Source of the DNA: an uncultured Desulfobulbaceae bacterium
Lineage (GTDB): Bacteria; Desulfobacterota; Desulfobulbia; Desulfobulbales; CALZHT01
Reading direction: 5' to 3'
Length of the DNA: 46,151 nucleotides
Assembly: GCA_945787445.1 (NCBI GenBank)
Contig: CALZHT010000011.1
Span: forward strand, 1-46,151
A model generated the notes under the pieces. The model saw only the letters and a list, made by a program, of their open reading frames with translations. It did no database searches and was not told the DNA's origin. Each line of letters begins with the position of its first letter. The stretch's first letter is position 1. This document shows positions 23,624-27,318 of this stretch, piece after piece. The translations under genes and the position numbers were made by a program.

Positions 23624-23941
23624 TCAGGAGTCAGTGAGATGCCTCGCGATAGCTTCTTGAGCGTCTGCAAGTGAGATGCCGGAGAGGGAAAACCGTTTCT
23701 TTCTGCTTTCCCTGCCTGCTTGTAAAGCAATTGCAGATTTTGGCAGGTTGAAGAATTTGGAAAGAATTTTGATAACGGCCGCATTGGCCTTCCCCTCAAC
23801 AGGGGGGGCTGTCGTGCTGATTTTTACGGCGTCATCATGTAATCCCACTACCTTGTTGCGGGATGCTTTGGGCTGCACATAGATGAGGAGAGAAACCGTG
23901 CCGCCTTTCTCTTTTCTCAGGTAAGTCAAGGTCTGTGTCAC
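23624..23941 (-). CDS. DUF167 / YggU-family protein
   Basis: A 105-residue protein of the widespread YggU (DUF167) family, whose molecular role is unknown. The family signature is clear: VQPKASRNKVVG, VKISTTAPPVEGKANAAVIKIL (cited in part: APPVEGKANAAVIKIL) and LSKFFNLPKSAI. The start appears to be GTG 23941, 9 bp after the divIVA stop, with no good ribosome site, so it may be translated by coupling to divIVA. The order yggT - divIVA - DUF167 gene is also recorded in other bacteria, supporting a link to envelope or division functions. Confidence 0.85.
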   Translation of the reverse strand: MTQTLTYLRKEKGGTVSLLIYVQPKASRNKVVGLHDDAVKISTTAPPVEGKANAAVIKILSKFFNLPKSAIALQAGRESRKKRFSLSGISLADAQEAIARHLTDS

Positions 23942-23950
23942 TAAAATGTT

Positions 23951-25471
23951 CTATTCGTTTTTCAAGCTTTGCAAGTCACCGAGAAGATCATCGATATCCG
24001 CATCGTTCTTATCGAGCGGGTCTTCCAGTTCGATCTGCATATCACCCTCCAGGTCAGGGAGATTGCCGTCGCTATTAAGGCCCAAATCATCGCTGATCGC
24101 CGTTTCCAAATCTTCCGGTGAAATATCCGGGATCTCGAGGTTGTCAAGGTCAAGCTCTTCATTTGGCGGAGCGGCCAACTCCGTCGCTTCATCTGCAAGC
24201 AGATCAATTTTTTCATAGAGGTTTGAAAGGTTGTCTTCCGGGGACTCTTTTGTTGAGGGCTCTTCATCGGCAACCACTGGGATCTCAATTTCATCCAAGG
24301 CTGTAAGGGACTCATCATCGGCAACCTGGGTGGCCTCAATTTCATCCAAGGTTACAGGAGTTTCATCCTCGGCAGCCAGAGTGGCTCCAATTTCATCAAT
24401 GGCCAGGGATGGTTCATCATCGGCAATCTGAGGGGCCTCTTCTTCCTCAACAGCTTGTGAAGGCTCTTCATCCGCGATTAGCGAAATTTCTTCTGAAACC
24501 TCATCTGGTATAGGTTCTCCTTCATCAGCCACCGGGAATGCCTCTTCTTCAGCAACAATTAGGGAGGGTTCTATTTCCTCAAGGGGGACATCAAGATCCT
24601 GGTCAGTATCGGCTATCTCTTCTTCGGCACTTTCTGTCATAACAAGGGCTTCAGGGACAAACTCCATTTCCTCTTCCACATCTTCCATCTTCGAAGCAAT
24701 TTCCCCGATCCTCTCATCCTTTGTCTGTAAAAAGGATTCACTGTCAAGTTTATCTAAAAAAGACTGCATAACATCACGAAGCTTTTCTTGGAGCTCTGTT
24801 TTTATTTCCTCTAAAGTGCTTACGTGTTGGAGGAGGCTGGTAAGGTTGGTGCGGGTATTGGTCTCAGCTTCCGAGGCCTCTGTTTTTGCGTTTTTCAGGA
24901 GTTCCGCTGCTTCCTTTTTAGCGTTATCAAGCAGTTCGGTAGCTTCCTCTTCCGTTTTTTTCCTCAATTCATTTGTTTCAGCGAGGGTGCTTTCCTGCAG
25001 CTCATCAGCTTCTCTTTGGGCATTTTCCTTGAGTTCAGCGAGTTCCTGCTCGGTTTTTTCCCTGAACTCAGTGGTTTCTCTGGTGGCTACTTCACGCAGT
25101 TCGTCAGCTTCTTTATTAATATTTCCTCTCATTTCATCAAGTTCCTGCAGCGTGTTGTTGCGTAAATCGTTAACCTCCTGCTCGGTTTTTTGCCGCAGCT
25201 TATCAGCATCTTTTTTTGATTTTTCCGCCAGTTCATCGGCGATTCGCTGGGCTGATAAGATCGCTTTCTGGAATGACTTTTCCTGGCTTTTATAGCTGTC
25301 AATATCATTTCTGAGTTCATTCAGTTTATCTTTGAGCTGTTGGTTTTCCGTGTTTAACAATAGGAATTCCTCTGCTACTTTTTCAAGAAATGAGTCAACT
25401 TCATCGACATCAAAACCACGGAATTTAACATTGAACTGTTGGGATTGGATATCTTGAGGTGTTAATGACAT
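23951..25471 (-). CDS. Long DivIVA-domain protein with hendecad coiled coil and acidic repeat tail
   Basis: The N-terminal ~50 residues (TPQDIQSQQFNVKFRGFDVDEVDSFL in part: FNVKFRGFDVDEVDSFL) are a DivIVA membrane-curvature domain. Residues 75-206 are twelve consecutive 11-residue units such as EQELAELKENA and KKEAAELLKNA, indicating a right-handed hendecad coiled coil. After a normal coiled segment (about 210-260) comes a strongly acidic tail in which residues 332-416 are about five 17-residue units (for example IADDEPSLAIDEIGATL). At 506 residues it is two to three times the size of usual DivIVA proteins. AAGGAGA precedes ATG 25471. The neighbours YggT and DUF167 are the same as in Gram-positive division clusters. 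It is probably a cell-pole or septum scaffold; the tail's partner is unknown. Confidence 0.85.
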   Translation of the reverse strand: MSLTPQDIQSQQFNVKFRGFDVDEVDSFLEKVAEEFLLLNTENQQLKDKLNELRNDIDSYKSQEKSFQKAILSAQRIADELAEKSKKDADKLRQKTEQEVNDLRNNTLQELDEMRGNINKEADELREVATRETTEFREKTEQELAELKENAQREADELQESTLAETNELRKKTEEEATELLDNAKKEAAELLKNAKTEASEAETNTRTNLTSLLQHVSTLEEIKTELQEKLRDVMQSFLDKLDSESFLQTKDERIGEIASKMEDVEEEMEFVPEALVMTESAEEEIADTDQDLDVPLEEIEPSLIVAEEEAFPVADEGEPIPDEVSEEISLIADEEPSQAVEEEEAPQIADDEPSLAIDEIGATLAAEDETPVTLDEIEATQVADDESLTALDEIEIPVVADEEPSTKESPEDNLSNLYEKIDLLADEATELAAPPNEELDLDNLEIPDISPEDLETAISDDLGLNSDGNLPDLEGDMQIELEDPLDKNDADIDDLLGDLQSLKNE

Positions 25472-25520: not shown

Positions 25521-25820
25521 TTATCCAAGTGTTCTTGCCCAATGGTGAAGGGTCGGCACAAGAAAGCTTCTTAAGAAAATAATGGCCAGAATGAGGATCA
25601 TGGGCGAAAAATCTAAACCACCGCCAAATATTGGGATATACCGCCGGATTCTTTGGAGCAGCGGATCGGTGATATCGTATATAAACCGGACGATGGGATT
25701 GTAAGGATCAGCATTAACCCAGGAAATAATGACTCGGCCAATTATGACCCACATATAAGCACTTAAAACGAAATTTACCAGGGAGGCCAGGGCATTTAAA
25801 AAATTACTGATAACAAACAT
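25521..25820 (-). CDS. YggT-family integral membrane protein
   Basis: A small membrane protein (99 residues) with two hydrophobic spans, LASLVNFVLSAYMWVIIGRVI near residues 10-30 (shown in part) and SPMILILAIIFLRSFLV near 70-90, separated by the family motif SWVNADPYNPIVRFIYDITDPLL (in part: NPIVRFIYDITDPLL). YggT proteins are linked to cell division and osmotic phenotypes without a defined activity. ATG 25820 is preferred because GAGGT lies 6 bases upstream; an upstream TTG (25841) has none. It is upstream of divIVA by 49 bp on the same strand. Confidence 0.85.
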   Translation of the reverse strand: MFVISNFLNALASLVNFVLSAYMWVIIGRVIISWVNADPYNPIVRFIYDITDPLLQRIRRYIPIFGGGLDFSPMILILAIIFLRSFLVPTLHHWARTLG

Positions 25821-25944
25821 AATTACCTCAGGATAAGTCAAATATCAATATGGATTTTCCCGCAAAAAGGGTGGAAATCGGTTAGCATGCGTTGTAATTT
25901 CAATTAGTTATAAGTTAATGCATCGATGAACTGGCAATGGCTTT

Positions 25945-26224: not shown

Positions 26225-26983
26225 TTACAAATTTTGCAAAAAAGTAGTGGTGAGTGACTTGACGGCGCGGCTGGCCCTGCTTTCCGGGGTGTGAAGAAGA
26301 AAGGGCTTTTGGTTTCTGATTGCCCTGACAACATTGCTGTCCTGGGGAACTACCCCGAAGATTTTTGGTGTAAAACCTAGAAACTTATCAACCACCAGGC
26401 TCAATTTGTTGAAAATGTCCAGCCCTTCTTTTTTACTCTTGGCGTTATTAATCAAAAGATAGAATATCTTTTTGCCGTCTCTTTTATAGAGAACTTTGAT
26501 CAAGGCGTATGCATCAGTCAATGAAGTCGGGTCAGGTGAAATAATGATGACATTTTTCCTTGCCCAGTTGTTGAACCATAGAACGGATTCACCGATACCG
26601 GCAGCTGAATCGATGATTACAAAGTCGAAACCGTCAGCAACGGTATCAAGGATCCCCTTTAGAGAGTTTTGTTTTTCTTGGGAAAGGGTAGCGAGCTGGG
26701 GCGCCCCTGAGCTGGCCGGGAGAACATGGAGGTCCGGCACTATCGGCACCAGGAGGTTTGCGGGAGCTTTGTCACCTTTGATTGCTTCTTCAATATTATG
26801 ACTTACCTGCAGACCGAGCAGTACATCTATATTGGCTAAGCCTAAATCCCCATCGATAAGGAGTACCTTTTTTGATTTATGGGCAAGGGCAAAGGCAAAA
26901 TTTACCGACAGTGAGGTTTTGCCCACCCCGCCTTTGCCGCTGCTGATGCAAAGAGTTATTGGCGTTCGGTTTTGTGGTTGCAT
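26225..26983 (-). CDS. MinD/FlhG-family P-loop ATPase
   Basis: A 252-residue deviant-Walker-A ATPase. ISSGKGGVGKTSLSVNFA (P-loop residues 17-23, with the signature Lys at 17), LLIDGDLGLANIDVLLGL and the switch VIIDSAAGIG match FlhG (MinD2), the polar flagellum-number regulator, more closely than septum-site MinD. The C-terminus does not show a clear amphipathic membrane-targeting helix. No flagellar genes lie nearby, so its cargo could be a pole-localised machine such as the type IV pilus. It starts 8 bp after the stop of the half-GGDEF gene. Confidence 0.85.
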   Translation of the reverse strand: MQPQNRTPITLCISSGKGGVGKTSLSVNFAFALAHKSKKVLLIDGDLGLANIDVLLGLQVSHNIEEAIKGDKAPANLLVPIVPDLHVLPASSGAPQLATLSQEKQNSLKGILDTVADGFDFVIIDSAAGIGESVLWFNNWARKNVIIISPDPTSLTDAYALIKVLYKRDGKKIFYLLINNAKSKKEGLDIFNKLSLVVDKFLGFTPKIFGVVPQDSNVVRAIRNQKPFLLHTPESRASRAVKSLTTTFLQNL

Positions 26984-26991
26984 GGTATTTG

Positions 26992-27318
26992 TTATGACGC
27001 AAAAAGTGTAAAGAGATCTGCCTTTTCTTCAACGGTAACGTGGCATGATTCTTCTCGGGTTGCATGGGTAACATGGCAGATCCTGTTTTTGCCCTCCGCC
27101 TTAGCCTTATTAAGACCGGCGCAGGCCATCTCGATAAGTGCCTTGCTATCCGTCATGGTATTAATTTCATAACAAATACCTATGTCGATCAGGACAAGGC
27201 CTAAATTTTCTTTGTTCTTTCCAGGGACCCGAATGGTATGAAAAGAAAAATGCGGTGCTTTTTGTTCAATGTCTTCAAGAAATTTTTCTTTACTGAATCC
27301 GGATTCCGCAATTTTCAT
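26992..27318 (-). CDS. Small protein resembling the C-terminal half of a GGDEF domain
   Basis: A 108-residue protein. Residues 39-82 (LGLVLIDIGICYEINTMTDS, then ALIEMACAGLNKAKAEGKNRI) align by eye with the last part of diguanylate-cyclase domains, where SIGIA...LLxxADxALYxAKxxGrNrv is conserved. The GG[DE]EF catalytic signature and the N-terminal half are absent, so it cannot be an active cyclase alone. The start overlaps the metG stop by 4 bases (ATGA), so translation is probably coupled, and the MinD/FlhG gene follows after 8 bp. It could be a c-di-GMP sensor remnant, an adaptor or a decayed gene; the clean reading frame and tight spacing favour a working gene. Confidence 0.6.
   Translation of the reverse strand: MKIAESGFSKEKFLEDIEQKAPHFSFHTIRVPGKNKENLGLVLIDIGICYEINTMTDSKALIEMACAGLNKAKAEGKNRICHVTHATREESCHVTVEEKADLFTLFAS

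Follow-up and report, generated by a model that had tools for sequence, protein, structure and literature searches.

How long is the rod of a DivIVA protein, on which repeat is it built, and is its length fixed? These questions are raised by a gene of an uncultured Desulfobulbales bacterium, which lies in a window of 46,151 nucleotides (the whole stretch of DNA that was analysed) and encodes a protein of 506 residues. DivIVA coils are reported to vary in length between organisms, the C-terminal part of the protein being the one that tetramerises (PMC8872289), and the means by which the protein recognises negative curvature are said to be unclear as yet (PMC12393619). The original prediction was that residues 75-206 divide into twelve gap-free units of eleven residues, that ordinary DivIVA coils are heptad-based, and that the array implies a straight or right-handed rod of defined length, which could act as a spacer between the membrane domain and the tail. 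The gene and its parts are the following.

23951..25471, minus strand: DivIVA-family gene (PF05103, 89.9 bits for a cut-off of 28, residues 3-121; TIGR03544)
25250..25471, minus strand: N-terminal DivIVA domain and heptad coil, residues 1-74, with F17 and R18 (phmmer; period about 3.5 for residues 27-74)
24854..25249, minus strand: twelve hendecads, residues 75-206 (lag-11 z 10.2; period 3.675; 12/12 units fit the a-d-h rule)
24821..24853, minus strand: thirteenth hendecad RTNLTSLLQHV, residues 207-217 (in-phase a-d-h fit; homology)
24743..24820, minus strand: C-terminal coil, residues 218-243, with the anchor L-R--hh---hL (profile 11.8 bits; period about 3.47 for residues 207-260; helix predicted to residue 243)
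23954..24739, minus strand: acidic, mostly unstructured tail, residues 245-506 (92 D/E for 7 K/R in 262 residues; mostly pLDDT <50)
24256..24437, no strand assigned: 51-bp (17-aa) acidic tandem repeat within the tail, separate from the hendecads (Tandem Repeats Finder)

By sequence models the protein is a DivIVA. Besides PF05103, it matches TIGR03544 above the cut-off (47.8 bits versus 22), and phmmer aligns its residues 1-54 with the N-domain of Bacillus subtilis DivIVA (2wuj, E 4.7e-7). F17 and R18 stand at the B. subtilis numbers and are invariant in 13 aligned proteins. R18 has a membrane-binding role in B. subtilis DivIVA, and F17 comes just before it. The latter is a membrane-binding residue of the B. 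subtilis protein (PMC8872289). RGFDVDEVD, at residues 18-26, agrees with the RG(Y/F)DxxEVD motif by which PMC9858780 defines DivIVA, and is followed by the heptad coil. The protein is neither Scy, Wag31 nor GpsB by the models for these: the Scy model touches residues 71-330 at 25.2 bits, far under its cut-off (NF041483, 1040), and the equivalog models for Wag31 (NF050102, 42.2 bits versus 260) and GpsB (NF010725, 39 bits versus 91) are likewise below theirs, as is the Pfam Apolipoprotein model (PF01442, 34.1 bits versus 90). Searched against its own genome, the focal protein matches itself alone; a search of genome contigs with it as single query gave no match.

Residues 75-206 do divide into twelve gap-free units, which map exactly to positions 25249-24854, and the prediction was even slightly understated, as there are thirteen units rather than twelve. 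Self-similarity within these residues gives z scores of 10.2, 7.4, 10.4 and 8.9 at lags 11, 22, 33 and 44, and of 0.2 at lag 7. The best hydrophobic period of the array is 3.675 (power 19.6), with a power of 19.3 at 3.667 and of 1.7 at 3.5. None of 2000 composition shuffles was as periodic as the array (maximum 10.3 versus 19.5 observed, the shuffles being scanned on a grid twice as coarse as that for the observed array). The Fourier analysis that had been proposed as a check thus finds no 7-residue period, and a heptad coil running through the array is ruled out by the difference in power between 3.5 and 3.667, heptad runs being of 2 at most. One simple a-d-h rule accommodates 13 consecutive units in a single phase (residues 75-217), and 2 at most in any other; in alignments with relatives, the final one, 207-217, matches the unit that closes their arrays ahead of the C-terminal coil. 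In the flanks, residues 27-74 and 207-260, the best period is about 3.46-3.55.

The core of the unit is made of positions 4 (A, V, L or T), 7 (L, with M, F and A once each) and 11 (A, T or S, with I once), spaced 3-4-4, the remaining positions being polar on average; E is found at position 3 in 10/12 units and likewise at position 6. On the helix face, position 11 sits halfway from 7 to 4, and in a two-stranded coil it would point at the partner. This axis-facing position holds a small residue (A/T/S) in 11 of units 1-12 and V in unit 13; in units 1-3 of relatives it is mostly A or S. Hendecads are reported to put one residue per repeat at the axis, where dimers favour small ones, and to imply very slight supercoiling, a period of 3.667 compared with 3.63 residues per turn giving a nearly straight, weakly right-handed coil (PMC9858780). 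The periodicity of the array therefore implies the kind of rod that had been predicted; its straightness itself we infer.

Is the array recent? Where two units have the same residue, their codons share the third base in 0.48-0.58 of cases, versus 0.48 region-wide. Since the units have diverged and third-base agreement is at background, the array is old and has been retained. A recent expansion at the DNA level is unsupported by this figure, and a run of Tandem Repeats Finder at score 30 detected no array there. The closest blocks are residues 119-151 and 152-184 (55% amino acid and 64% nucleotide identity); as the best similarity is that of three units with the next three, duplication may have proceeded by blocks. 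In the one assembly of the species the units are not identical to each other, which makes an assembly artefact unlikely.

AlphaFold2 was run on a 28-protein alignment, as a monomer (mean pLDDT 65.6, pTM 0.26). It predicts a single helix over residues 22-243, with a pLDDT of about 78-97 over residues 21-240, and an unstructured tail. One continuous predicted helix thus links the N-terminal domain to the long acidic tail, in line with the spacer proposed. Its length would be about 33 nm (222 residues at 0.15 nm per residue), versus about 18 nm with four units. At its end, the tail carries the motifs LYEKIDL and LPDLEGDM...LEDPLD, which look like partner-binding peptides. Among 102 DivIVA proteins of the order Desulfobulbales, LYxKI is found in 69 and DPLD in 48, and both are absent in 26, mostly from family f12.

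We then measured the rod in relatives as the distance between two anchors, the Q of the SAQ-IA-E segment (Q75 in focal numbering) and the R of the ELR--L--YL segment (R232). The collection comprised 168 loci giving 152 distinct proteins; the 102 from the order cover a part of its genomes with a DivIVA match (165/257). Distances in the order were measured with profiles built only from 58-residue proteins, and this applies to the C-terminal anchor profile that gives 11.8 bits on the focal DivIVA. The distance is 58 in 72 of the 96 order proteins measured. In 21 of the other 24 it is 69, 80, 91, 157 or 168, all of the form 58+11k. The remaining three are L040, at 87, i.e. 58+29 (2x11+7), and L039 (55) and L043 (117), both with weak anchors. 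Six order proteins gave no measurable distance (L041, L045-L047, L135 and L136); most come from one genus with a different-looking coil, and L041 seems to lack the hendecad segment.

As 58 residues correspond to four hendecads plus 14 residues, the distance of 157 in the focal protein corresponds to thirteen hendecads, and unit counts in the order are 4, 5, 6, 7, 13 and 14. The two relatives of the same family, L002 and L003 (whose protein is the same as that of L170), both measure 69, that is five units. Only L022 (157) and L035 (168), from one genus of another family, are as long as the focal rod in the order. A conserved length of twelve units is therefore rejected, same-family relatives having five and most order proteins four. 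Repeat counting in orthologs, suggested as a further check, does find a length conserved in most, although of four units, not twelve; the "defined length" is thus true of the common form with four units and not of twelve.

Outside the order, 50 DivIVA proteins of the phylum gave 58 in 24 cases and another length in 5, with 21 left without measurement. Family f48 (L150-L153, L155, L156), from another class, has a long rod too. Lag 40, i.e. three hendecads plus a heptad (3x11+7), is strongest in L150 (G126:C45), L153, L155 and L156, and the rods appear to grow in 40-residue blocks, not by 11s alone. Their distances are 109 (L151, L152) and 178 (L153, L155, L156), measured from weak first anchors. 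As a control, we measured another segment, from the N-terminal motif (its G) to the Q anchor: the distance is 56 in 86/113 proteins, differs in 18 of one family and was without measurement in 9. The extra residues there (98, 120, 109, 102, 95, 88) are not confined to multiples of 7 or 11. Proteins of family f12 (L042, L044, L048-L050, L137-L149) carry 88-120 additional residues of coil after the N-terminal motif and ahead of the hendecad segment, and their anchor distance is mostly still 58. No DivIVA match was found among the members listed of family f11 of the order, near-complete genomes included; one f11 genome (G047) has a sub-significant Pfam match.

The four-unit form was examined in its own right on 56 proteins, obtained by thinning the 93 with a distance of 58 at 70% identity. 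Over 44 columns, their mean hydropathy correlates better at lag 11 (r 0.61) than at lag 7 (r 0.30), and 16 distinct proteins from more distant loci behave alike (0.63 versus 0.22). Extending the comparison to 55 columns takes in residues of the C-terminal coil, and the lag-11 value of the common form accordingly falls to 0.26, under that of lag 7 (0.35). Ahead of the hendecad segment, residues 25-68, taken from 65 proteins, have a period of 3.49 and a lag-7 value of 0.53. Among 26 distant loci (17 Alicyclobacillus, one Alicyclobacillaceae, and others), the distance is 58 in 20 and 69 in L224 (Atribacteria), and 5 were unmatched by the pattern. A four-hendecad module of 58 residues is thus common to the order proteins and to the DivIVAs measured in Alicyclobacillus and elsewhere. 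Since the four-unit segment is itself hendecad, the description of ordinary DivIVA as a heptad protein is right for the N-terminal coil alone; in the other DivIVAs measured, too, hendecads make up the segment that follows.

To follow how length changed, a tree was built from 93 proteins with the array columns left out (115 columns; 36 of 90 inner branches open; L039, L041, L043, L045, L046, L047, L135, L136 and L147 omitted). The focal protein groups with L002 and L003 in one clade (SH-aLRT 97), implying, as far as sequences tell, a gain of about eight units in the focal lineage (157 versus 69). On this tree, the family of L022 and L035 reached 157 and 168 separately from the focal lineage. 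At least 11 length changes are needed, 10 of which are multiples of 11, the exception being the 87 of L040; the count of independent changes is rough, given 115 columns and many open forks. The binomial probability of at least 10/11 steps in multiples of 11 is 3.9e-10, assuming random, independent in-frame steps. We do not claim whole-unit steps as proof of selection, since repeat slippage without selection also favours whole units.

The genes around divIVA are the following, with counts over 29 loci of the order whose flanks are about 1.5 kb or less.

25521..25841, minus strand: YggT-family gene, upstream (PF02325, 86 bits; beside divIVA in 29/29 loci)
26225..26983, minus strand: MinD/ParA-like ATPase gene (PF13614, 65.2 bits; in 22/29 loci)
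23624..23941, minus strand: YggU (DUF167) gene, downstream (PF02594, 84.4 bits; in 28/29 loci)

The order MinD-like, YggT, DivIVA, YggU is kept. MinD models applied to the product of 26225..26983 were all under their cut-offs. An ORF of 108 residues (26992-27318, minus strand), between the MinD/ParA-like and metG-like genes, has no NCBIfam match and a GGDEF match below cut-off. In several bacteria, DivIVA is reported to act together with MinD or ParA proteins; in Bdellovibrio, the product of a gene of the divIVA operon binds DivIVA and ParA3, and DivIVA bound 0/3 ParA proteins (PMC7186360). The focal protein may serve as a polar or septal scaffold, and may partner the neighbouring MinD/ParA-like ATPase.

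With DivIVA of the Firmicutes (B. subtilis type), the focal protein shares F17 and R18 at the same numbers, the heptad N-terminal coil, the C-terminal coil and a YggT gene nearby, YggT being named near DivIVA genes in PMC9858780. It differs by thirteen units instead of four, and by its 262-residue acidic tail with motifs of its own. FilP and Scy are DivIVA-like proteins with rods expanded by hendecads (PMC9858780). Like these actinobacterial proteins, the focal DivIVA has a DivIVA-like N-terminal motif followed by a hendecad-lengthened rod, here of 13 in-phase units; however, FilP and Scy are paralogues, whereas the focal protein is its genome's only match and stands in a conserved YggT context. 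The step differs as well, being of 11 residues here, while the unit in FilP and Scy is reportedly of 51 residues (Walshaw 2010); Walshaw 2010 and Oliva 2010 may also bear on hendecads in DivIVA. Wag31, the actinobacterial DivIVA, is alike in its DivIVA domain, long coiled coil and role as polar scaffold, but is reported to have a disordered insert between domain and coil (PMC12393619), where the focal helix is predicted to be continuous. The focal rod would also work like the ATP synthase b-subunit stalk, whose Ala-rich hendecad dimer forms a right-handed two-stranded coil anchored in the membrane (PMC6131620). Membership is not claimed, no b-subunit family being among the Pfam and NCBIfam matches of the focal protein. 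In a search of open full-text literature, outside which most subscription journals fall, only PMC9858780 joined DivIVA with hendecads, and its passages on the subject do not describe them in DivIVA itself; on DivIVA in Desulfobacterota, the same kind of search found none, and among the papers listed by a broader one nothing further bore on this.

We favour, with a probability of about 0.68, a DivIVA scaffold of the ordinary kind in which the hendecad spacer has grown by whole repeats, with register kept and tail moved outward. The N-terminal domain would bind the membrane and dimerise through the heptad coil, and the helix would run on without predicted break through the hendecad segment and the C-terminal coil to the acidic disordered tail with its two motifs. 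The hendecad segment, an old part of DivIVA normally of four units, would act as spacer, and is probably a nearly straight dimeric rod; that the dimer is parallel, the rod near-straight and its function that of a spacer, we infer. Duplication of whole units up to thirteen would keep the register of the rod and shift the oligomerising end and tail away from the membrane by about 15 nm. The two membrane-binding ends of a tail-to-tail tetramer would then lie about 30 nm further apart. Lengthening in parallel with the FilP and Scy rods is the best reading of the likeness to them. Against the spacer explanation stand L040, which steps by 29, and about 7-8 order proteins without a measurable or credible linker, some of which would thus do without the spacer or have something else in its place. 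The 40-residue growth of the f48 rods and the fall of the lag-11 correlation over 55 columns also weigh against it.

The lengthening may also have no special purpose. That length is neutral, 33-bp units slipping and spreading and any whole number of hendecads being tolerated because register is kept, has in our view somewhat less than an even chance. The wide range of unit numbers in the order fits it, as do the two same-family relatives, which manage with five units, and the two close members of one genus, L022 and L035, which differ by one. Yet exactly four units are kept over large divergence, in three quarters of the order proteins measured (72/96) and in 20/26 distant loci, which points to a constraint on length, and the diverged units argue for an array that is old and retained. 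Taking this constraint further, the ancestral four-hendecad form could be a ruler, its length under selection and reset by whole hendecads, by which lineages tune membrane-to-tail reach or the curvature bridged by the tetramer. The 13-14-unit forms (focal, L022 and L035) would then be convergent long-reach versions, a Gram-negative counterpart of FilP and Scy. This proposal is tentative, and its odds are well short of even.

Eleven-residue repeats are typical of apolipoproteins, synucleins and LEA proteins, and the array might accordingly be an amphipathic helix lying on the membrane, not a coiled-coil rod. The Pfam Apolipoprotein match has an E-value of 2.9e-8 in spite of its low score, and most of the 17 PDB sequences matched by the focal DivIVA are apolipoproteins. 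We nevertheless hold this very improbable: the non-polar positions are 4, 7 and 11 only, consistently large only at 7, with the others polar on average; the net charge of the array is -15 over 132 residues; and the common four-unit form of the same segment joins two coiled coils. A single, unpaired charged helix is hardly more credible. E, K and R are indeed many, and favourable minus unfavourable i+3/i+4 charge pairs amount to 11, compared with a shuffle mean of -1.6 (s.d. 7.1), but this excess is less than 2 s.d., all 13 units share a regular a-d-h seam of non-polar residues, and the coils at the two ends form dimers in the DivIVA proteins that have been studied (PMC9858780, PMC12393619).

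Back to the lengthened spacer, what is new, judged from sequence, is that a hendecad module is common to ordinary DivIVAs and that almost all differences in its length are of whole units; the focal rod is among the longest measured. DivIVA is thus not a purely heptad protein, but, in the relatives measured, has two heptad-like coils with a hendecad module between them. If the lengthening is functional, rods of 4, 5, 6, 7, 13 and 14 units would provide a natural series with which curvature preference, or the distance from membrane to partner, may be probed.
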